Assembly (NCBI GenBank): GCA_021325635.1
Contig: JAJPGV010000041.1
Span: 1-64,000, forward strand
DNA from: Chloroflexota bacterium
Lineage (GTDB): Bacteria > Chloroflexota > JAJPGV01
Length of the DNA stretch: 64,000 bases
Reading direction: 5' to 3'
The position numbers and the translations under genes are program-made. The notes below the pieces were generated by a model. It worked only from the letters and a program-made list of their open reading frames with translations, made no database searches and was not told where the DNA came from. This document shows positions 24,626-41,178 of this stretch, in pieces. Numbering within the stretch: the first letter of the stretch is position 1; every line of letters begins with the position of its first letter.

Positions 24626-27448
24626 CTATCTGGCTCTGCGCTCCGCCGCCCGGCGCTTGGCTTCGAACAGCCGGTTTCGGACGGCGTCCTTGGAGACGGC
24701 GTCCTCGCGAGGACGAGCAGACGGTCGCTCGGCTGGGAGTCCGGTCTGCTCCCTGGTAGTCTGCCGGCCGCGGCGCTGCTCTTCGGGACTGGCAACTTCG
24801 CCGAAGTTGGCTACCGGCTCCAGCCCCGACGCCGTCCGCACAGCGGCGTGATGCGTCTGCAGCGGCGGCGGCCGATACCTCGCCCACAGGACCTGACACA
24901 GCGTCACCAGGTCGTTTGGCGCTATGCGCAGCCGGCGGCTGGCGACGTCCAGCAAGAAGAGCAGGAGTGCCGCGGCGGCCAGGAATTGCCAAATCGATTG
25001 GGCGCCGCCAGCTGCGGCAAGGTCGTGGTTGAAGGCCTGAGCCGCGTCCAGCAGATCGCGACCTCCTGTAGCGGCGGCGAGCTGCTGCAGGAGATTGACG
25101 TTGGTGCCCAGCACCTGGTACTCAGGCGAATAAGGCACGACGTATCCCTTGCTCTGCGCGGCGATAATCTGACCCTGCGCATTGGCCTGGGTCACCTGGA
25201 CCAAGTAGGTTCCCTCGGCGTTGGTGGGGAAGGAGCCTTGGTAGCGGCCTGGGGCCACCTGGTCGAGGGCCACCTGGCTCTTCTGGCCCGAAGGATCGAA
25301 GATGGTGGCGTTCGTCGGCAGAAAATTCTGAAGCTGCCGATCGGCGTCCTGAGAGTCGACGGTTATCTGAGCCTGATCGCCCTGGGCCAGGATGGTCGTT
25401 TGCAGGTTCTGCTCGATCTCGCCGGGCAGCGTGCGTTTGATGACCTGCGTCCAGAACTTGGCGAAATCCGGCCAGGTAATCCACTGTGAGGCCCACTGCC
25501 CCTTGGTGTCCGAGGTCCAGGCAACCACACGGCCCAGACCGTACTGCCATTCGGACAGGATGGGGTCCCCCTGGGCCGAGGCCAGCACGGGCTGGGCGGT
25601 CGGCTTGGGTGTTGTAGCCACGTACCCTTTCAGCTCCGGCAGCTTGGTGGGGTCGATGCCATTCATGATGGGGCTGACGTTGGTGAGCAGGGGCTGGAAG
25701 TTCTCCTCGACGATGGCCGGCTTGGCCACGAGCTGCGTCTCGCGCAGCAGCAGGCTCGGGATGTCGAACGGATCGTTGCCGTCGTAGTAGCGACCCTTGC
25801 CCCATAACGCGATGTTCTGGAGCAGCAGCAGATCCTGCGGCAAGACGTTCGTGCCAACCACGGACACGGTGATCTTGTCGTTGGCGATGGCCTTGATCTG
25901 GTCTTCATACGTGTCGGTGGCGTCGCCATCGCCCAGCAGAATGATGTGCTTGACCTTGGCGTCACTCTCCAGCAGCGCCTTGTGGGCGGCATCGAAAAAC
26001 GGCTTGTAGCTGGCCGGGTCGCCAACCTGCAGACCGTCTACCTTGGCGACCAGGTCGGGCTTGTTGGTGACCTTCTGCAGCGGGATGGCAACGTCCTGGT
26101 TACCGTCGCTGACGCCTACTTCATCGAGCGGGGAAAGGGCATTGATGGCGCCCTTGGCCGCTTCTTTGGAAATGTCGATCCCGAGGTTGCTCTCGAGCGA
26201 TTCGATGATGAAGAACACCGCCGTGCTGGGGATGTTCCGCCGAGGAGCAACCTCGGACGTCACCGGCAGCACGTCTTCGAGGGGGGTCTTGTTGTAGCCG
26301 CCTGTGCCATAGCTCTTGTCGCCGCCAATCACCACAAGCCCGCCGCCGAGGTCTTGGACATACGTCTTGACCACGCGCATCTGCGCCGCGGTGATGGCGC
26401 TGACCGGTACGTTGGCGAGGATCAGGGTGTCGTAGTTCCGCAGCGTCGGCAGATCCGAAGGCATCCCGCTGGGGTTCACGGTCTCCACGTGCGTGCCATC
26501 CGATTCGAGCGCGGCTGCCAGCGCCGCGGTGTCGCCCGCCTGGTTCTCGACGATGAGGACCCGAGGCTTGCCGCTCACATTGGTGAACGCGCTGCCGGTG
26601 TTGTTCTCGGCGACCGTGTCCTCGGCCGGCTCAATGCTGGCCTGGAAATTATGAGCCCCGCTATCCAGCGGCCGGTGATCGAAGATGAACGAGTTCGTGC
26701 CGCGCCGGATCTGGACGGTCTCCTCGGTGGATACCTGCCCATCCGTCAGCAGGCGGATGCGTGAAGACGTATCGATGTTCGATTCGACGGTTACGGATAC
26801 CGAGAACGACTCTCCTTCACGCAGCGTCGGAGGAGACTGCACCTGCTTGACGTAGACCTCAGGATCGTCGTTCTTGGCGATAGGCACGAAATCGATCTGC
26901 ACGCCTGCGGCGCCGGCGATCCTGGCCTGGTCAATGGCCTTGTCCAGGTTCTCGTTACCGTCGGACAGGATGACCATGCGGCGGGCCGTGGTGTTGGGGA
27001 GCAGGGCCATGCCCAAGCGAATGGCGTCCGCAAGGTCGGTTCGGGTTTTCACCGGGCTGGAGTTGATGGCGGGCAGGTCTTCGAGGTGCGACAGCGGCTC
27101 GTCGACCAGCGCATTCTGTCCGAACACGACTACGCCGGCCTGATCTTTGAGGCCGATACTCTTGAGGGCCGTGCGAACCCAGTTGATCTCAGCGTTCACC
27201 TGGTCGCCCGTCACGCTATCCGAGGCGTCGAGCAGGAACACCGTGGACAGGCTCTGGGCTCGCTGCACGATGCGCGGTGAAGCCAGCGCCGTGACCAGCA
27301 GGAGCAGCACCATCAGACGCAGCGTCAGGCTGAAGATGGCCTGGTCGCGGGGCATGTGCACCCCGCTCCGATACGCCACGTACAGCGTCAGCGGCACCAG
27401 CGCCAGCAGCACGAACGCCAGCGGATAGAGGAAGTTAAGGGTGATCAT
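24626..27448 (-). CDS. VWA-domain membrane protein with amidotransferase-like domain
   Basis: This is a 940-residue membrane protein. The N-terminus (1-60) has two membrane helices in the BatA-like arrangement. A von Willebrand factor A domain follows with the metal-ion-dependent adhesion motif LLDASDSV and a later LSDGNEN. About 290-430 is a class I amidotransferase-like fold (RVLIVENQAGDTAALAAAL, then LGGGLVVIGGDKSYGTGGY) lacking a nucleophile Cys. A second VWA-like region contains ILLGDGDATDT. Near residue 840 is a further membrane helix, and the C-terminus is a basic cytoplasmic tail. It belongs to the MoxR-DUF58-VWA operon and is its last gene. The ATG has no ribosome binding site, apparently because the four-helix-bundle insert separates it from the preceding VWA gene. 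Confidence 0.85.
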   Translation of the reverse strand: MITLNFLYPLAFVLLALVPLTLYVAYRSGVHMPRDQAIFSLTLRLMVLLLLVTALASPRIVQRAQSLSTVFLLDASDSVTGDQVNAEINWVRTALKSIGLKDQAGVVVFGQNALVDEPLSHLEDLPAINSSPVKTRTDLADAIRLGMALLPNTTARRMVILSDGNENLDKAIDQARIAGAAGVQIDFVPIAKNDDPEVYVKQVQSPPTLREGESFSVSVTVESNIDTSSRIRLLTDGQVSTEETVQIRRGTNSFIFDHRPLDSGAHNFQASIEPAEDTVAENNTGSAFTNVSGKPRVLIVENQAGDTAALAAALESDGTHVETVNPSGMPSDLPTLRNYDTLILANVPVSAITAAQMRVVKTYVQDLGGGLVVIGGDKSYGTGGYNKTPLEDVLPVTSEVAPRRNIPSTAVFFIIESLESNLGIDISKEAAKGAINALSPLDEVGVSDGNQDVAIPLQKVTNKPDLVAKVDGLQVGDPASYKPFFDAAHKALLESDAKVKHIILLGDGDATDTYEDQIKAIANDKITVSVVGTNVLPQDLLLLQNIALWGKGRYYDGNDPFDIPSLLLRETQLVAKPAIVEENFQPLLTNVSPIMNGIDPTKLPELKGYVATTPKPTAQPVLASAQGDPILSEWQYGLGRVVAWTSDTKGQWASQWITWPDFAKFWTQVIKRTLPGEIEQNLQTTILAQGDQAQITVDSQDADRQLQNFLPTNATIFDPSGQKSQVALDQVAPGRYQGSFPTNAEGTYLVQVTQANAQGQIIAAQSKGYVVPYSPEYQVLGTNVNLLQQLAAATGGRDLLDAAQAFNHDLAAAGGAQSIWQFLAAAALLLFLLDVASRRLRIAPNDLVTLCQVLWARYRPPPLQTHHAAVRTASGLEPVANFGEVASPEEQRRGRQTTREQTGLPAERPSARPREDAVSKDAVRNRLFEAKRRAAERRAR

Positions 27449-28004
27449 GGCTTAGGAGGGCGGAACCGCTGGGGGCCGAACCGCTGGGGGCCGAGTGCCG
27501 AGTGCCGAGTGCCGGGTGCCGAGGTGTCGGAGGCGGCGCCGTGAGTTTCTCGGACTGAAGGTCCCGCGTGCTGGGTGCCGAGTGCGGAGCTTGCTTGGTT
27601 GGCGAAGTGACTTTCTCAGATGGGAAGCCGGCACTGCCGCGCCTTTCGATGGAGACTCGCAGACCACCAATCAGCCGTCCGACCTCTTCGGCCTGCTGCA
27701 ACAGCTGTTCGAATTCCCCGGGATCGAGATAGCCTGCATCGCCGGCCAAGTACAGCAGTGAGCGCACCTCAGCGCAGGAACCTTTTGCTGTCGAGACGAA
27801 ATAGTGGAATTCGGCTCGACTGTTCCGCTCGAAGCCTTCAGCCAAGTTCGGCATAATCGAGGCGGCTGCGCGCTGGAGTTGGCCGGCTAATCCAAAGTCA
27901 CGCGCAAGGTCGCGCTTGCGCGTGACCCGATAAATTGCGGCGGCCAGCGACCGTGCTTTCTGCCAAGCAAGCAGATCTTCGAAGCGGCGGGCGCTACTCA
28001 CCAT
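27435..28004 (-). CDS. Four-helix-bundle protein (23S rRNA intervening-sequence protein family)
   Basis: This is a 189-residue protein whose first 125 residues match the four-helix-bundle/S23 family: FEDLLAWQKARSLAAAIYRV at the N-terminus, GLAGQLQRAAASIMPNLAEG, then FERNSRAEFHYF and SCAEVRSLLYLA. The family was named from ORFs inside intervening sequences of 23S rRNA and is related to the Avd proteins of diversity-generating retroelements; function is unknown. Residues past about 130 are a low-complexity tail that is the translation of flanking heptamer repeats (RHPALGTRHSAPSG). ATG 28004 is preceded by GGAG. It sits between two genes of an operon that are otherwise adjacent, with inverted heptamer arrays on each side, so it looks inserted. 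Confidence 0.88.
   Translation of the reverse strand: MVSSARRFEDLLAWQKARSLAAAIYRVTRKRDLARDFGLAGQLQRAAASIMPNLAEGFERNSRAEFHYFVSTAKGSCAEVRSLLYLAGDAGYLDPGEFEQLLQQAEEVGRLIGGLRVSIERRGSAGFPSEKVTSPTKQAPHSAPSTRDLQSEKLTAPPPTPRHPALGTRHSAPSGSAPSGSALLSHDHP
27464..27526. repeat. Left heptamer array and 15-bp tandem duplication
   Basis: Positions 27464-27493 are two exact copies of a 15-bp unit (AACCGCTGGGGGCCG). They run into about five heptamers CCGAGTG (27491-27526), some degenerate. The heptamer reads GTGCCGA on the plus strand, the reverse complement of the array on the other side of the four-helix-bundle gene. Confidence 0.9.
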
Positions 28005-28084
28005 GCACTCCAGCTCGTCCAGTTTCGCTTGTCGTCTGGGGCCTTCCGCCCCGAACCCTGGTGCTGGCGCCCCAAGATTCGGCG

Positions 28085-28130
28085 CTCGGCACCTGGCACC
28101 TGGCACTCGGCACTCGGCACTCGGCACTCA
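28085..28130. repeat. Right heptamer array, inverted relative to the left one
   Basis: About six heptamers TCGGCAC/TGGCACC in tandem, the inverted complement of the array at 27491-27526. It ends six bases before the stop codon of the upstream VWA gene. Confidence 0.9.
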
Positions 28131-28135
28131 TCAAG

Positions 28136-29989
28136 TCACGCACGTCTATGGAACCAGTACCACTCGAAGGTTAGGAGGCCGATGGCGGCCAGGAGCACCC
28201 AGGGCCAGAACTCATGCTTGGCCGGCGTCCATTCCACCGTGTCGTTGGGACGAAGCACCGAGCCACCGATGTTGAGCGCGGCGCGCGGCGCGATGTCCGA
28301 TTCGCGCGGGTCGGTGAGGTTGATGGCGAACAGCTGCTGTTGGATGAGCTTGCCCTGCGCCTTCTGATCTACTTGATAGAGGCCGATGGCATCGGTATCG
28401 GTGTAGCCCACGGGCTTTCCGGCGGGTTTGAAGCTGCGCGTTGAACCGTCCGGCCGGTGCACGGTGATTTCGTCGGCTTGTGGCAGCGGCTGAATCAGGA
28501 CGCTGTCGCCGGCGGAGGGCGCCTTGATTTGGGCAGCGTCGCCCGGCTGAAGGTAGCTCATGACGTTGGAGATGAAGATGGGGAAGCCGCTGAGCAAGCC
28601 GAAATTCGACCAGTGGAGGTCGAACGGCAGGATCACCATCCTGCGGCCAGCGTTGTTCCCTGAGAGCAGGAGTGGTGTGCTGCCGGACGCTGCCAGGACG
28701 TGCGCCCAGGAAGGCGCATCCACGACCCGCGCGCGCTGCAGCTGGAGGTCGCCGAACTGCACGTAGCTCAGCAGGGGATCGCTGTCCTCGAACGAGGTGA
28801 CCTTGGGACGATTGACTGGGTCGGTCTGCACTTCGAGCCAGTCTGTCGCGGGAGGGTTGATCAACAGCATGTTGCCGTTCGGCAGATCGGGTGGTAGGAA
28901 TCCGTCGAACACGAAGACGTCATATTGGCTGGGGTCGATGCCCGCGTATCGCCGAGGGTCCGCTTTGAACACCTCCACGTTGGGCAGCAGGTTGACGGCT
29001 TTCTCCAGGAACAAATTGTTGACGGTGACCAGCAAGATCTTGTACGTCCCGGCCTGATTCAGCACGAGCCAGGCCGACTTGTCGGCGGGAAATTGCCCGA
29101 CGTCCCGCAGCCGCGCCTCAACGACCTTGGCATTGGGCGGCAGGTTGTCGAACACGTGCTCGAACTTGCCCTTGGCCTGCATCTGGACGTCGGCGCTGTC
29201 CACGAGCTTTCCGTCCACGTACAGGCTCAGCAGATTGCTGCCGGGCGCGTCGCCAAAGTTCTGGACGCGCACGAACACGTGCTGCACCTGGGCATCGTTG
29301 GGATCCGGCCGCGCGCTGAGGTTGGTGATTCCCTGGTTCTCGCCGGAGCTGCCGATCGGAATGAAATGGATGTCTGCGTCGCCGGTCTGAAGGTCCTGTA
29401 TATCCGGGAAAGCGCCGTCACTGATCACAAAGATCTGGCTGCGGCTGTGCCCCTTGTTGAGCGACAGCGCCAGCTGCAGCGCCTGCTTCATGTCGGTGCT
29501 GCCGCTGGTGACCTGGGCGTGATTCAGAGTGTCGGTGAGCTGGGCTTTAGTGGCGGATTGCACCAGGATGTCGGGATGATCGCGGACGCGCACGATCGTG
29601 CCGGTTGCATCGTCGCTCAGACGGTTGACAATCTGCTGCGCCGCGGCTCTGGCCGCCTCGAAGCGGCTGGGCTTCACGTCGGTGCTCTGCATGCTGGCGG
29701 ACGAGTCCAGCAGCAGCACCACGTTATCGCTGGCCTGGGCGTTAGCCGTGAAGAAGGGTCGGGCCAGGCCGAAGGTGAGCAGCGCCATCAGCAGGACCTG
29801 GAGCAGCAGGAGCAGGGTCGTTTTGAGACGCTGCCACGGCTCGTGAGCCACCAGATCGCGATGCAGCTGCTCCCACAGGTAGGTGGAGGAGATCTCGAGA
29901 TCGTGGCGGCGCACCTTGAGCAGGTAGAAGATGATGAGGATTGGGATTGCCAGCCCAAAGGCCAGCGCCAGCGGCGCGACGAAGCTCAC
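28136..29989 (-). CDS. BatA-like VWA-domain membrane protein
   Basis: This is a 617-residue membrane protein. Residues 1-85 hold the BatA-type N-terminus with two membrane helices. The VWA domain follows with a complete adhesion motif LLLDSSASM and VISDGAFPD. About 270-560 is a second domain with alpha/beta and beta-rich parts and no recognised motif. A C-terminal helix (PWVLLAAIGLLTFEWYWF) anchors the protein again. It overlaps the DUF58 gene by 4 bp. Proteins of this kind work with MoxR ATPases as chaperone-like assemblies; the client is unknown. Confidence 0.87.
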   Translation of the reverse strand: MSFVAPLALAFGLAIPILIIFYLLKVRRHDLEISSTYLWEQLHRDLVAHEPWQRLKTTLLLLLQVLLMALLTFGLARPFFTANAQASDNVVLLLDSSASMQSTDVKPSRFEAARAAAQQIVNRLSDDATGTIVRVRDHPDILVQSATKAQLTDTLNHAQVTSGSTDMKQALQLALSLNKGHSRSQIFVISDGAFPDIQDLQTGDADIHFIPIGSSGENQGITNLSARPDPNDAQVQHVFVRVQNFGDAPGSNLLSLYVDGKLVDSADVQMQAKGKFEHVFDNLPPNAKVVEARLRDVGQFPADKSAWLVLNQAGTYKILLVTVNNLFLEKAVNLLPNVEVFKADPRRYAGIDPSQYDVFVFDGFLPPDLPNGNMLLINPPATDWLEVQTDPVNRPKVTSFEDSDPLLSYVQFGDLQLQRARVVDAPSWAHVLAASGSTPLLLSGNNAGRRMVILPFDLHWSNFGLLSGFPIFISNVMSYLQPGDAAQIKAPSAGDSVLIQPLPQADEITVHRPDGSTRSFKPAGKPVGYTDTDAIGLYQVDQKAQGKLIQQQLFAINLTDPRESDIAPRAALNIGGSVLRPNDTVEWTPAKHEFWPWVLLAAIGLLTFEWYWFHRRA

Positions 29990-38806: not shown

Positions 38807-39508
38807 TTGCCCATCTCGCCACCGCCTTTCAGGCTCTCTCCGCCGGCTGCCATCAGGGAGGTCGTTTGTCCGGACCTTCCCCGCGTGGAAACGTCGTCCT
38901 GGCTGGTGCGCAACTACGGGCCGCGCTGCACGCTCGTCTGCGCGGCTTCGGTTCTGCAGCTGATCGGCGCCAGGTCCGAGGCGCTGGTGAGGACCATCGA
39001 GCTGGCCACTGGCTTCAGGGATAAGTCCGGGCCGCCGATTCTGGCGTACGTCGGAGGTCATTCTGCGCTGGATAGGGGCATCGAGCAGGCCGCGATGCTG
39101 GCTGGCATCAGCGTGCGATCGCGCACACGGTTCGTGGTCCGCTGGGAGCCTATTGCCCGCAGCCTAGACGCGGGCTTGCCCGTCGTGCTCAATTGCTATC
39201 GAGCGCCCAGCCGGCAGTGGAGCCATTCGGTCCTGGCGGTGGGTTACGCCGAGCCGCCACGGCGCTTGCTCACGTTGGACCCGAACGACGGTTTGGAGCG
39301 CTGGATGCGCTGGCTCCATCCTGCGACCGGTTGGGTGTGCACCGCGACCTTTATCGAGCCGAGTGCCGGCGGGAGTGCCGAGTGCCGGCGGAGTGCCGAG
39401 TGCCGGCGGAGTGCCGAGTGCCGGCGGAGTGCCGAGTGCCGAGTGCCGAGTGCCGAGGATTGCACCTCCTCCGGAGATTCGGGAGCTGTTTCGGGAGGCT
39501 CGACATAG
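38807..39508 (+). CDS. C39-like peptidase-fold protein with repeat-encoded tail
   Basis: This is a 233-residue protein. About 20-180 resembles the C39-like papain fold: a Cys in YGPRCTLVCAASVLQL, a His in WSHSVLAVGY and an Asp in LTLDPNDGLERW. These would form a Cys-His-Asp triad. The last 50 residues (from GGSAECRRS) are the translation of the heptamer array, a Cys-rich repeated tail that is not part of the fold. The start is TTG 38807; no ATG is in frame. It could be a processing peptidase or a degraded relative; no leader-peptide substrate is nearby. Confidence 0.65.
   Translation: MPISPPPFRLSPPAAIREVVCPDLPRVETSSWLVRNYGPRCTLVCAASVLQLIGARSEALVRTIELATGFRDKSGPPILAYVGGHSALDRGIEQAAMLAGISVRSRTRFVVRWEPIARSLDAGLPVVLNCYRAPSRQWSHSVLAVGYAEPPRRLLTLDPNDGLERWMRWLHPATGWVCTATFIEPSAGGSAECRRSAECRRSAECRRSAECRVPSAEDCTSSGDSGAVSGGST
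39358..39457. repeat. Left heptamer array (GCCGAGT), higher-order 18-bp unit
   Basis: About 100 bp of GAGTGCC heptamers. Four 18-bp super-units (GAGTGCCGAGTGCCGGCG) are followed by several simple heptamers. It lies in the 3' end of the C39-like gene. It is the inverted complement of the array at 39539-39640. Confidence 0.92.
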
Positions 39509-41178
39509 CCGCCGAACAGGAGCCGGGGACGAACAAGGTCGGCACTCGGCACTCGGCACTCGGCACTTCGCCGGCACTCGGCACTTCGTCGGCACTCGGC
39601 ACTCCGCCGGCACTCGGCACTCCGCCGGCACTCGGCACTGCCGACCTTCTCCTGCCGCTGGTCTTTGTGAGCGGATTCACGTCGCTGGCGGTCGAGCTGG
39701 CGGGGTCGAGGCTGCTGGCGCCCTATTTCGGAACATCGCTGTACATCTGGGCGGTGCTGGTTGGCCTGGTGCTGCTCTACCTTACGGCCGGCTATTTCAT
39801 CGGCGGGCGCTGGGCGGACCGGCACCCTTCAGCGCGGGTGCTCTTTCAAATCACCGCTTGGGCGGCCTTCGCCACGGGGGTCATTCCCGTGGTTGCCCGT
39901 CCCATCCTCAGCTTCTCGTCGATCGGCTTCGCCAACCTGGATGCGGGGCTGTTCCTGGGATCGCTGTTCGGCGTGGTTCTGCTGTTCGCCGTTCCGATCA
40001 CACTGCTCGGCTGCGTTTCGCCCTTTGCCATCCGCCTGGCCATGGGTGACGTTGGCCACGCCGGCAACGTGGCGGGACGGATCTACGCGCTCTCGACCTT
40101 GGGGAGCATCCTGGGCACGGTGGTTCCGGTATTCGTGCTCATACCCGCCATCGGCACGCCGCGAACGCTGTACGTGCTCTCGCTGGCTCTGCTGGGGCTG
40201 TCCGTGATTGGCCTGTGGCGATTTCGGAGCTGGTATTTTTGGCTGCTGCTGCCCGTGGCGTGCCTGGCGGTGCTGCCCGAGGCCGTTCTGCGACCGCCGA
40301 GCTTCGGCCGTCTGATCTACGCTACCGAGTCGGCGTACTACTACATCCAGGTCGTTCAGCAGGACACGCCGACCGGACCGCAGAACAATCTCATCCTCGA
40401 CGAGGGCCACGCCATCCATTCGATTTACAACCCGGGCCAGCTCACCACGGGCGGGCCGTGGGACTACTTCATGGTGGCGCCGCTGTTCAACCGCGGCTTC
40501 CGGCCCGATCAGGTGCATTCCGCCGCGCTCGTTGGCCTGGCGGCCGGCACCATCGCTCGGGATCTCACCTCGGTCTATGGCCCTATCCCGATCGACGGCG
40601 TGGAGATCGACCCGAAGATCATCGAGGTGGGGCGGCGCTTCTTCGATATGAACGAGCCAAACCTCAACGCCATCGCCCAGGACGGTCGGTACTACATCAC
40701 CACCACTCCCAAGCGCTATGACATCATCGGCATCGACGCGTATCGCCAGCCCTACATTCCGTTCCACCTGACCACGCGCGAGTTCTTTCAGCAGGTCCGG
40801 GACCATCTCACGCCCAATGGCGTGGCGGTCCTCAACGCCGGACGCACCGAGACGGACTACCGCCTGGTGGACGTTGTGGCCAGTACGATGAAGGCTGTCT
40901 TCCCAAATGTCTTCGTCATCGATCTGCCGGCGCCGCAGATCAACAGCATCATCGTGGGAACGAACTCGGCCGCGGAGCTGTCCAGCTTTGCCGCCAACGC
41001 CGGGCAGCTTTCGGACCCTACGTTGCGTCAGGTGGCGGAAACCGCTCTCCGGTCGGGTCGTGTGCGTGAGGTGACCGCGGATCCGACCGTCTTCACCGAC
41101 GATTGGGCGCCGGTGGAGAAGGTCATCGACGAAATCGTGCTGGGCTACGTCCGCGCGAACAACGGCGAGATCCGCTGA
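39460..41178 (+). CDS. Spermidine-synthase-like membrane protein
   Basis: The conserved part begins near 39650 with a helix of the form PLVFVSGFTSLAVELAGSRL, then APYFGTSLYIWAVLVGLVLL. Membrane helices run to about residue 250, followed by a soluble spermidine synthase-like methyltransferase fold (VGLAAGTIARDLTSVYGP, VEIDPKIIEVGRRFFD, IIGIDAYRQPYIPFHLTTREF). Such membrane-fused polyamine synthase homologues are common but their reaction is mostly unknown. The start is uncertain: the frame is open through the right heptamer array, with TTG 39460 and GTG 39667 as candidates; 39667 would cut the first helix. The array insertion may have replaced the original start. Confidence 0.8.
   Translation: MHLLRRFGSCFGRLDIAAEQEPGTNKVGTRHSALGTSPALGTSSALGTPPALGTPPALGTADLLLPLVFVSGFTSLAVELAGSRLLAPYFGTSLYIWAVLVGLVLLYLTAGYFIGGRWADRHPSARVLFQITAWAAFATGVIPVVARPILSFSSIGFANLDAGLFLGSLFGVVLLFAVPITLLGCVSPFAIRLAMGDVGHAGNVAGRIYALSTLGSILGTVVPVFVLIPAIGTPRTLYVLSLALLGLSVIGLWRFRSWYFWLLLPVACLAVLPEAVLRPPSFGRLIYATESAYYYIQVVQQDTPTGPQNNLILDEGHAIHSIYNPGQLTTGGPWDYFMVAPLFNRGFRPDQVHSAALVGLAAGTIARDLTSVYGPIPIDGVEIDPKIIEVGRRFFDMNEPNLNAIAQDGRYYITTTPKRYDIIGIDAYRQPYIPFHLTTREFFQQVRDHLTPNGVAVLNAGRTETDYRLVDVVASTMKAVFPNVFVIDLPAPQINSIIVGTNSAAELSSFAANAGQLSDPTLRQVAETALRSGRVREVTADPTVFTDDWAPVEKVIDEIVLGYVRANNGEIR
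39539..39640. repeat. Right heptamer array (ACTCGGC), inverted
   Basis: About 100 bp of GGCACTC heptamers, with 18-bp super-units CGCCGGCACTCGGCACTC, in inverted order to the array at 39358-39457. An 81-bp spacer lies between. It encodes the N-terminal extension of the following gene. Confidence 0.92.

Follow-up and report, generated by a model that had tools for sequence, protein, structure and literature searches.

Proteins of the PF05635/S23 four-helix-bundle (4HB) family are known from intervening sequences (IVSs) in bacterial rRNA. The 23S IVSs that encode S23p, such as those of Leptospira and Coxiella burnetii, are elements of ~430 bp in which the ORF lies in sense orientation in the loop of a stem formed by terminal inverted repeats, with heptameric repeats of variable copy number upstream of the ORF (PMC4990558). 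The IVS of C. burnetii has a closing stem of 28 bp, at which RNase III cuts, and contains GACAGAT heptamers in tandem, two to three of them depending on the strain (PMC4990558). Partial likenesses to the element described here are also found elsewhere. Avd of diversity-generating retroelements is a distantly related four-helix-bundle protein, as judged from a weak match to an NCBIfam model. REP/BIME and MITE-type repeats share with it intergenic inverted repeats and dispersed array-only copies. The TAACTGA arrays of Beggiatoaceae and cyanobacteria are likewise intergenic 7-bp repeats near start codons, but they have been described as repeats in direct orientation that hardly ever have an inverted partner and have no link to an S23 gene (PMC4679880). 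As quoted there, many bacteria have heptanucleotides as their most frequent repeats of long unit (PMC4679880).

Here, we analyze a block that separates two VWA genes in a 64,000-nucleotide stretch of a Chloroflexota genome (GCA_021325635.1, contig JAJPGV010000041.1, positions 1 to 64,000; the window). The block has an S23/PF05635 protein, a terminal complementary stem around the ORF and 5' heptamers, as an IVS does; it does not lie inside an rRNA gene but between two protein genes. It is built like an IVS, with excision by RNase III being inferred, but it is not an rRNA IVS. Unlike the 23S IVSs it sits at a junction of a protein operon and has long inverted heptamer arrays as arms, and each element of this kind has its own heptamer. 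Unlike the Avd-containing retroelements it lacks a reverse transcriptase as well as template and variable repeats. Elements of the window type differ from REP/BIME and MITE repeats by having period-7 arrays instead of fixed palindromes and a linked gene that is neither RAYT nor another transposase; the block has neither a transposase nor the conserved terminal inverted repeats by which a known family of insertion sequences or MITEs would be recognised. We consider it likely, with good confidence, that the block is an IVS-type insertion element, an S23/4HB gene in a hairpin with arms of inverted 7-bp repeats, which was inserted in a protein operon.

The architecture of gene plus arrays recurs across bacteria at gene boundaries and with empty sites, and looks like a widespread, little-recognised class of insertion elements. 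We found no report of a genome-wide link of S23 genes to heptamer arrays in the open-access literature; its novelty is provisional. The link joins two threads, the genes annotated only as 'four helix bundle protein' and unexplained dispersed heptamer arrays, and ties both to the long-standing puzzle of the origin and spread of rRNA intervening sequences.

A four-helix-bundle gene within heptamer arrays

The block (27449 to 28135, minus strand) splits an upstream VWA gene (28136 to 29989, minus strand; BatA N-terminal and VWA_2 domains) from its downstream partner (24626 to 27448, minus strand; VWA and GATase1_like domains) in an operon that also has DUF58 and MoxR genes. Its heptamer, the family of which we name GAGTGCC, forms two mutually inverted arrays. 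The left array, (GCCGAGT)4.9 with 92% matches, spans 27490 to 27523 and is 3' in the sense of the 4HB gene. Its inverted partner, the right array, (TCGGCAC)7.3 with 88% matches, spans 28079 to 28129, is 5' in the same sense and ends 6 nt past the stop codon of the upstream VWA gene. The left arm has degenerate inner heptamer copies at 27564 to 27589, and outside the left array, before the VWA start, a 15-bp unit, GGGCCGAACCGCTGG, is repeated 2.5 times (27458 to 27494). The best arms, 27483 to 27523 and 28085 to 28125, are 85% complementary over 41 nt, with an arm score of 31, whereas none of 2000 shuffles scored above 18.5. In RNA folding, the block reaches a z of -5.7 versus shuffles, and the arrays are the closing stem.

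The ORF between the arrays (27435 to 28004, minus strand) encodes 189 aa from an ATG at 28004, with its PF05635 core at 27666 to 27980, and matches PF05635 (E 6.5e-33), TIGR02436 (1.8e-31) and PDB 2gsc (E 1.8e-13), so that its fold family is evident from the sequence. These data confirm what an earlier note on this DNA had claimed, inverted heptamer arrays around a four-helix-bundle gene between VWA genes. Its statement that the other gaps of the operon are 4-bp overlaps or shorter than 90 bp was also borne out (4-bp overlap, 41, 89 and 27 bp). The note had further held that the downstream VWA gene has no ribosome binding site and even shows the complement of one. The complement is indeed there (CCTCC just 5' of the ATG); however, the 4HB frame is open through the whole left array and its stop at 27435 produces a 14-nt overlap with the VWA start codon (27448), so that translational coupling is possible and the missing binding site need not mean that the gene is untranslated. 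A perfect 12-nt inverted repeat with a 6-nt loop (27897 to 27926) lies within the 4HB coding sequence.

The same junction in relatives and the other 4HB genes of the genome

A 4HB gene adjoins the VWA gene in none of 29 VWA loci of the phylum (33-44% identity; some end before the gap). Both VWA genes are visible in 13 of these loci, and the block is missing at their junction, as the earlier note would have it if the operon were compared with its relatives. The two genes meet in an ATGA stop/start overlap in the best relative, by TGATG or with gaps to ~120 bp in others, and lie further apart in one (L085). The family and the class contain no second genome, and a nucleotide-level empty site of the window itself is therefore not obtainable; with relatives of at most 44% amino-acid identity, neither a target duplication nor the precise limits of the insertion can be read. 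In one relative (L083, genome G208) the VWA-VWA junction carries a short array of GAGTGAC/GAGTGAT but no 4HB gene.

Three PF05635 genes are present in this genome, and all three are flanked by inverted period-7 arrays, which was the second expectation of the note. The heptamer is a different one in each case: GAGTGCC in the window, GGCGCTA/GGCGTTA at C24:395 and GTGAAGA at C51:28503. The idea that the heptamers are the ends of the element thus holds for the architecture and fails for any fixed heptamer, since each element has its own.

Arms, period and position across bacteria

At least one PF05635 gene was found in 116 of 400 genomes of the phylum. We collected loci from the phylum, from other phyla, forty more copies from multi-copy genomes and ten plasmid copies. 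This sample is not independent, because many copies come from one bacterial family and the best-scoring hits were taken first. Inverted arms with a score of at least 15 flank 56 of 88 PF05635 loci, against 13 for arms in direct (forward) orientation; under the same threshold the controls gave 1 of 84 for far flanks 1.1-1.45 kb away and 2.0% for arms paired across different elements. An earlier cut, period-7 identity of at least 0.60, was passed by 50 of 87 near sides versus 2 of 82 control sides. The mean own-arm score was 18.2, the highest of 5000 permutations reached 11.3, and arm pairing is specific to each element. Clear inverted arms are missing at about a quarter to a third of the 4HB loci. 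The period is 7 in 40 of the 49 periodic arms, 8 in six and 9 in three; loci with period 8 or 9 in their inverted arms are L040, L042, L062 and L166. On the 5' side of the 4HB gene the arm is rich in G (0.36) and poor in C (0.13). The period-7 signal declines with distance from the gene, and at 0.3-1.2 kb period-7 arrays still exceed other periods.

We show that 4HB elements prefer gene boundaries and co-directional orientation. Both neighbours run in the direction of the 4HB gene at 62 of 85 loci, and the arrays start at a median of +3.5 nt past the upstream stop codon, with the next start codon following their end at a median distance of 10 nt. Neighbours and distances were assigned by a longest-ORF rule, which is approximate; some outliers are due to spurious frames in DNA of high GC content. 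At two loci (L046 and L047) the 3' arm enters the next gene, where heptamer sequence forms the start and first codons of a GMC-oxidoreductase-like gene; at L133 the N-terminus of an NAD-epimerase-like protein is built from heptamer sequence of the 3' arm.

An rRNA copy was also recovered. In Azospirillum lipoferum 4B (L167) a 4HB gene with inverted GGACAGA-type heptamer arrays lies inside a complete 23S rRNA gene (LSU model 1-2925). Together with the heptamers of the Coxiella IVS this makes the heptamer feature common to rRNA and operon copies.

Empty sites on plasmids

Nucleotide-level empty sites were found for sister elements. In plasmids of Trichormus variabilis and Scytonema an insert of ~406-420 bp lies between two genes, while plasmids of Tolypothrix, Nostoc and others, ~97-98% identical, are without the element. 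At the Trichormus site the ~420-bp insert has GTAATAAA on its left and GTAATTAA on its right, and the empty site has one copy, GTAATTAA, stop codon included; the direct repeat is 8 bp long with one mismatch and spans the stop codon. TTCTA (5 bp) stands on both sides of the element at a second plasmid site. Clear short direct repeats were seen at these two plasmid sites only and are not readable in the window. Further filled and empty pairs are L160/L187, L162/L174, L164/L184 (cas10-cmr3), L165/L185 and L168/L186, and in the pair L181/L174 another 4HB gene, a different one, occupies a further junction of the same operon. Arrays and 4HB gene are absent together from empty sites. A single element family, 78-81% identical, occurs in three unrelated contexts, and L172 is a decayed copy of a 4HB element. 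The filled and empty sites form natural pairs in culturable cyanobacteria.

Three cyanobacterial plasmid copies (L163, L164 and L169) lie in CRISPR operons, twice between cas6 and cas4 of type I-D and once between cas10 and cmr3 of type III-B, and the III-B site is empty in a related plasmid. Picosynechococcus sp. PCC 7003 carries an element between cas10 and cmr3, and PCC 7002 is empty there. These copies suggest, without proving it, that links between 4HB and cas genes can come from insertion. This would be a simple reason for finding 4HB genes among cas genes, as inserted genes and not as functional partners. The cas6-cas4 gap of Dolichospermum was rejected as an empty site, as a different insert is present there.

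The sister-element empty sites and the relatives without the block support the reading of the block as an insertion. That it is an autonomous unit, as the earlier note had proposed, has not been shown, for no known mobility enzyme is encoded. We found no transposase in the window block. The phage records gave no 4HB match, and a phage origin was rejected. No conserved end sequence was found among the elements. Their ends differ from element to element, and hence they are probably recognised by structure rather than by sequence.

Evolution of arms and slots

Elements are shared across genera at several slots, and in this respect some copies behave like resident genes. Since elements at such other operon slots have been inherited over genera, mobility is episodic. 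The 4HB protein is under purifying selection, with dN/dS mostly 0.03-0.15; values are 0.03-0.09 between copies at shared operon slots and 0.12-0.15 for the same mobile family in different contexts.

Among all same-slot pairs own and cross arm scores were equal overall (17 versus 16 pairs); the comparison is informative only for pairs with 4HB proteins that are more than 25% different. In 11 of 12 such pairs an arm matches its own partner better than it matches the partner arm from the other species (17.3 versus 9.5), so the arms turn over in sequence while staying matched within the element. Five of the 12 pairs involve L148, the 4HB protein of which is only ~30% identical to the others; these are accordingly replacements or separate insertions and not orthologues, while the remaining pairs look orthologous. 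Mismatches in the arms are G.U in 152 and A.C in 143 cases (p 0.64), and an excess of G.U over A.C that would be a sign of RNA-level selection on the stem is not seen. This equality points to upkeep of the arms at the DNA level, by a cause such as conversion between arms, and not via RNA selection. In the slot before a 2-oxoacid dehydrogenase E2-like gene, L049, L056, L059, L126 and L151 on the one hand and L148 on the other have unrelated 4HB genes (29-33% identity), each of the two with its own heptamer, which would be the outcome of independent insertion or of replacement.

Origin of the block

In the scenario that we favor, the element would have entered a MoxR-DUF58-VWA operon where a stop and a start codon meet, and in the orientation in which the operon is transcribed. 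The operon transcript is then predicted to fold into a long stem that RNase III could cut. By analogy with rRNA intervening sequences, such a cut would free the 4HB message and split the polycistron, and RNase III cuts are predicted in many operon mRNAs. Slippage in the arrays and conversion between the arms may keep the arms matched at the DNA level. Mobility is presumed to be structure-based, although no mechanism of movement has been established.

One might argue that the heptamer arrays arose on their own as dispersed repeats, by slippage or in the manner of REP sequences, that they pile up in intergenic gaps, and that 4HB genes are found there by chance. This genome has more than ten sites with GAGTGCC arrays but no 4HB gene, among them the surroundings of pyrC in a pyr operon, which would fit, as would the general abundance of heptanucleotide repeats quoted above and the period-7 excess that persists at 0.3-1.2 kb. 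However, pairing of the inverted arms is element-specific, the signal falls off with distance and each 4HB gene of one genome has a different heptamer. Empty sites lack arrays and gene together, the two were gained as one unit, and this idea is largely contradicted; we regard it as improbable. A domesticated host gene of the operon, for example an RNA-binding processing or regulatory factor that is now immobile and has the arrays as its cis-acting sites, would explain the low dN/dS between same-slot copies and the slots shared across genera. It does not sit well with the plasmid empty sites, with one family in several contexts, with the decayed copy L172 or with unrelated 4HB genes (~30% identity) in the same slot. 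Furthermore, the arrays of orthologues differ in sequence, which makes sequence-specific recognition unlikely. Domestication is therefore an unlikely explanation, but one that we keep in mind.

A MITE-like or IS element, with ends mobilised by a transposase acting in trans, would have terminal inverted arms, and the short direct repeats found at two sites and the 4HB-less hairpins with the same heptamer are also in keeping with it. A transposase that recognises sequence would require its ends to be conserved, yet they vary from element to element, also in a single genome, and there is no linked transposase; we give this possibility little credence. Very doubtful, too, is a retroelement route, that is mobility via reverse transcription. 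It is hinted at by the relation of PF05635 to Avd, with the window protein matching the NCBIfam Avd model weakly (E 4e-4), and by the sense-orientation bias. RVT_1 has no match in this genome, where dependence on a reverse transcriptase is rejected, and it is absent from 9 of 24 further genomes that have many 4HB genes; a template or variable repeat was not seen. An IVS-type insertion element thus remains our preferred reading of the block.

Array-only hairpins

This genome contains the sequence GAGTGCCGAGTGCC 62 times, and its reversed control not once (0). Three places have inverted hairpins that lack a 4HB gene, namely 39358 to 39639 of the window, C24:7737 and C56:198064, the last two beginning 2-3 nt past a stop codon. 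The window hairpin belongs to the GAGTGCC family, with inverted arrays around a ~80-bp loop, and is a candidate non-autonomous copy. As RNA it has a fold z of -21 and a nearly perfect ~100-bp stem, and its arrays have an 18-bp composite period. A 4HB-less heptamer hairpin is inserted within a 4HB gene (L176) of the Nostoc plasmid pNPM1. We infer that array-only hairpins are non-autonomous copies.

A broader view is possible but tentative, and we would not yet bet on it. S23/4HB genes flanked by inverted heptamer arrays may form, together with array-only hairpins of the same heptamers, one very widespread class of transposase-free mobile elements. Its ends would be recognised by structure (inverted period-7 arrays) and not by sequence, the 4HB protein would be its sole own factor for mobility or maintenance, and rRNA IVSs would be the subset that landed in rRNA genes.

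The neighbours of the window hairpin at 39358 to 39639 are, named by eye, C39-peptidase-like and spermidine-synthase-like genes. At L108 (G000:C30:30000-34300) GAGTGCC arrays occupy both gaps of an apparent pyrB-pyrC-carA operon, with more than 300 bp of forward arrays in the carA-pyrC gap and reverse arrays in the pyrC-pyrB gap.
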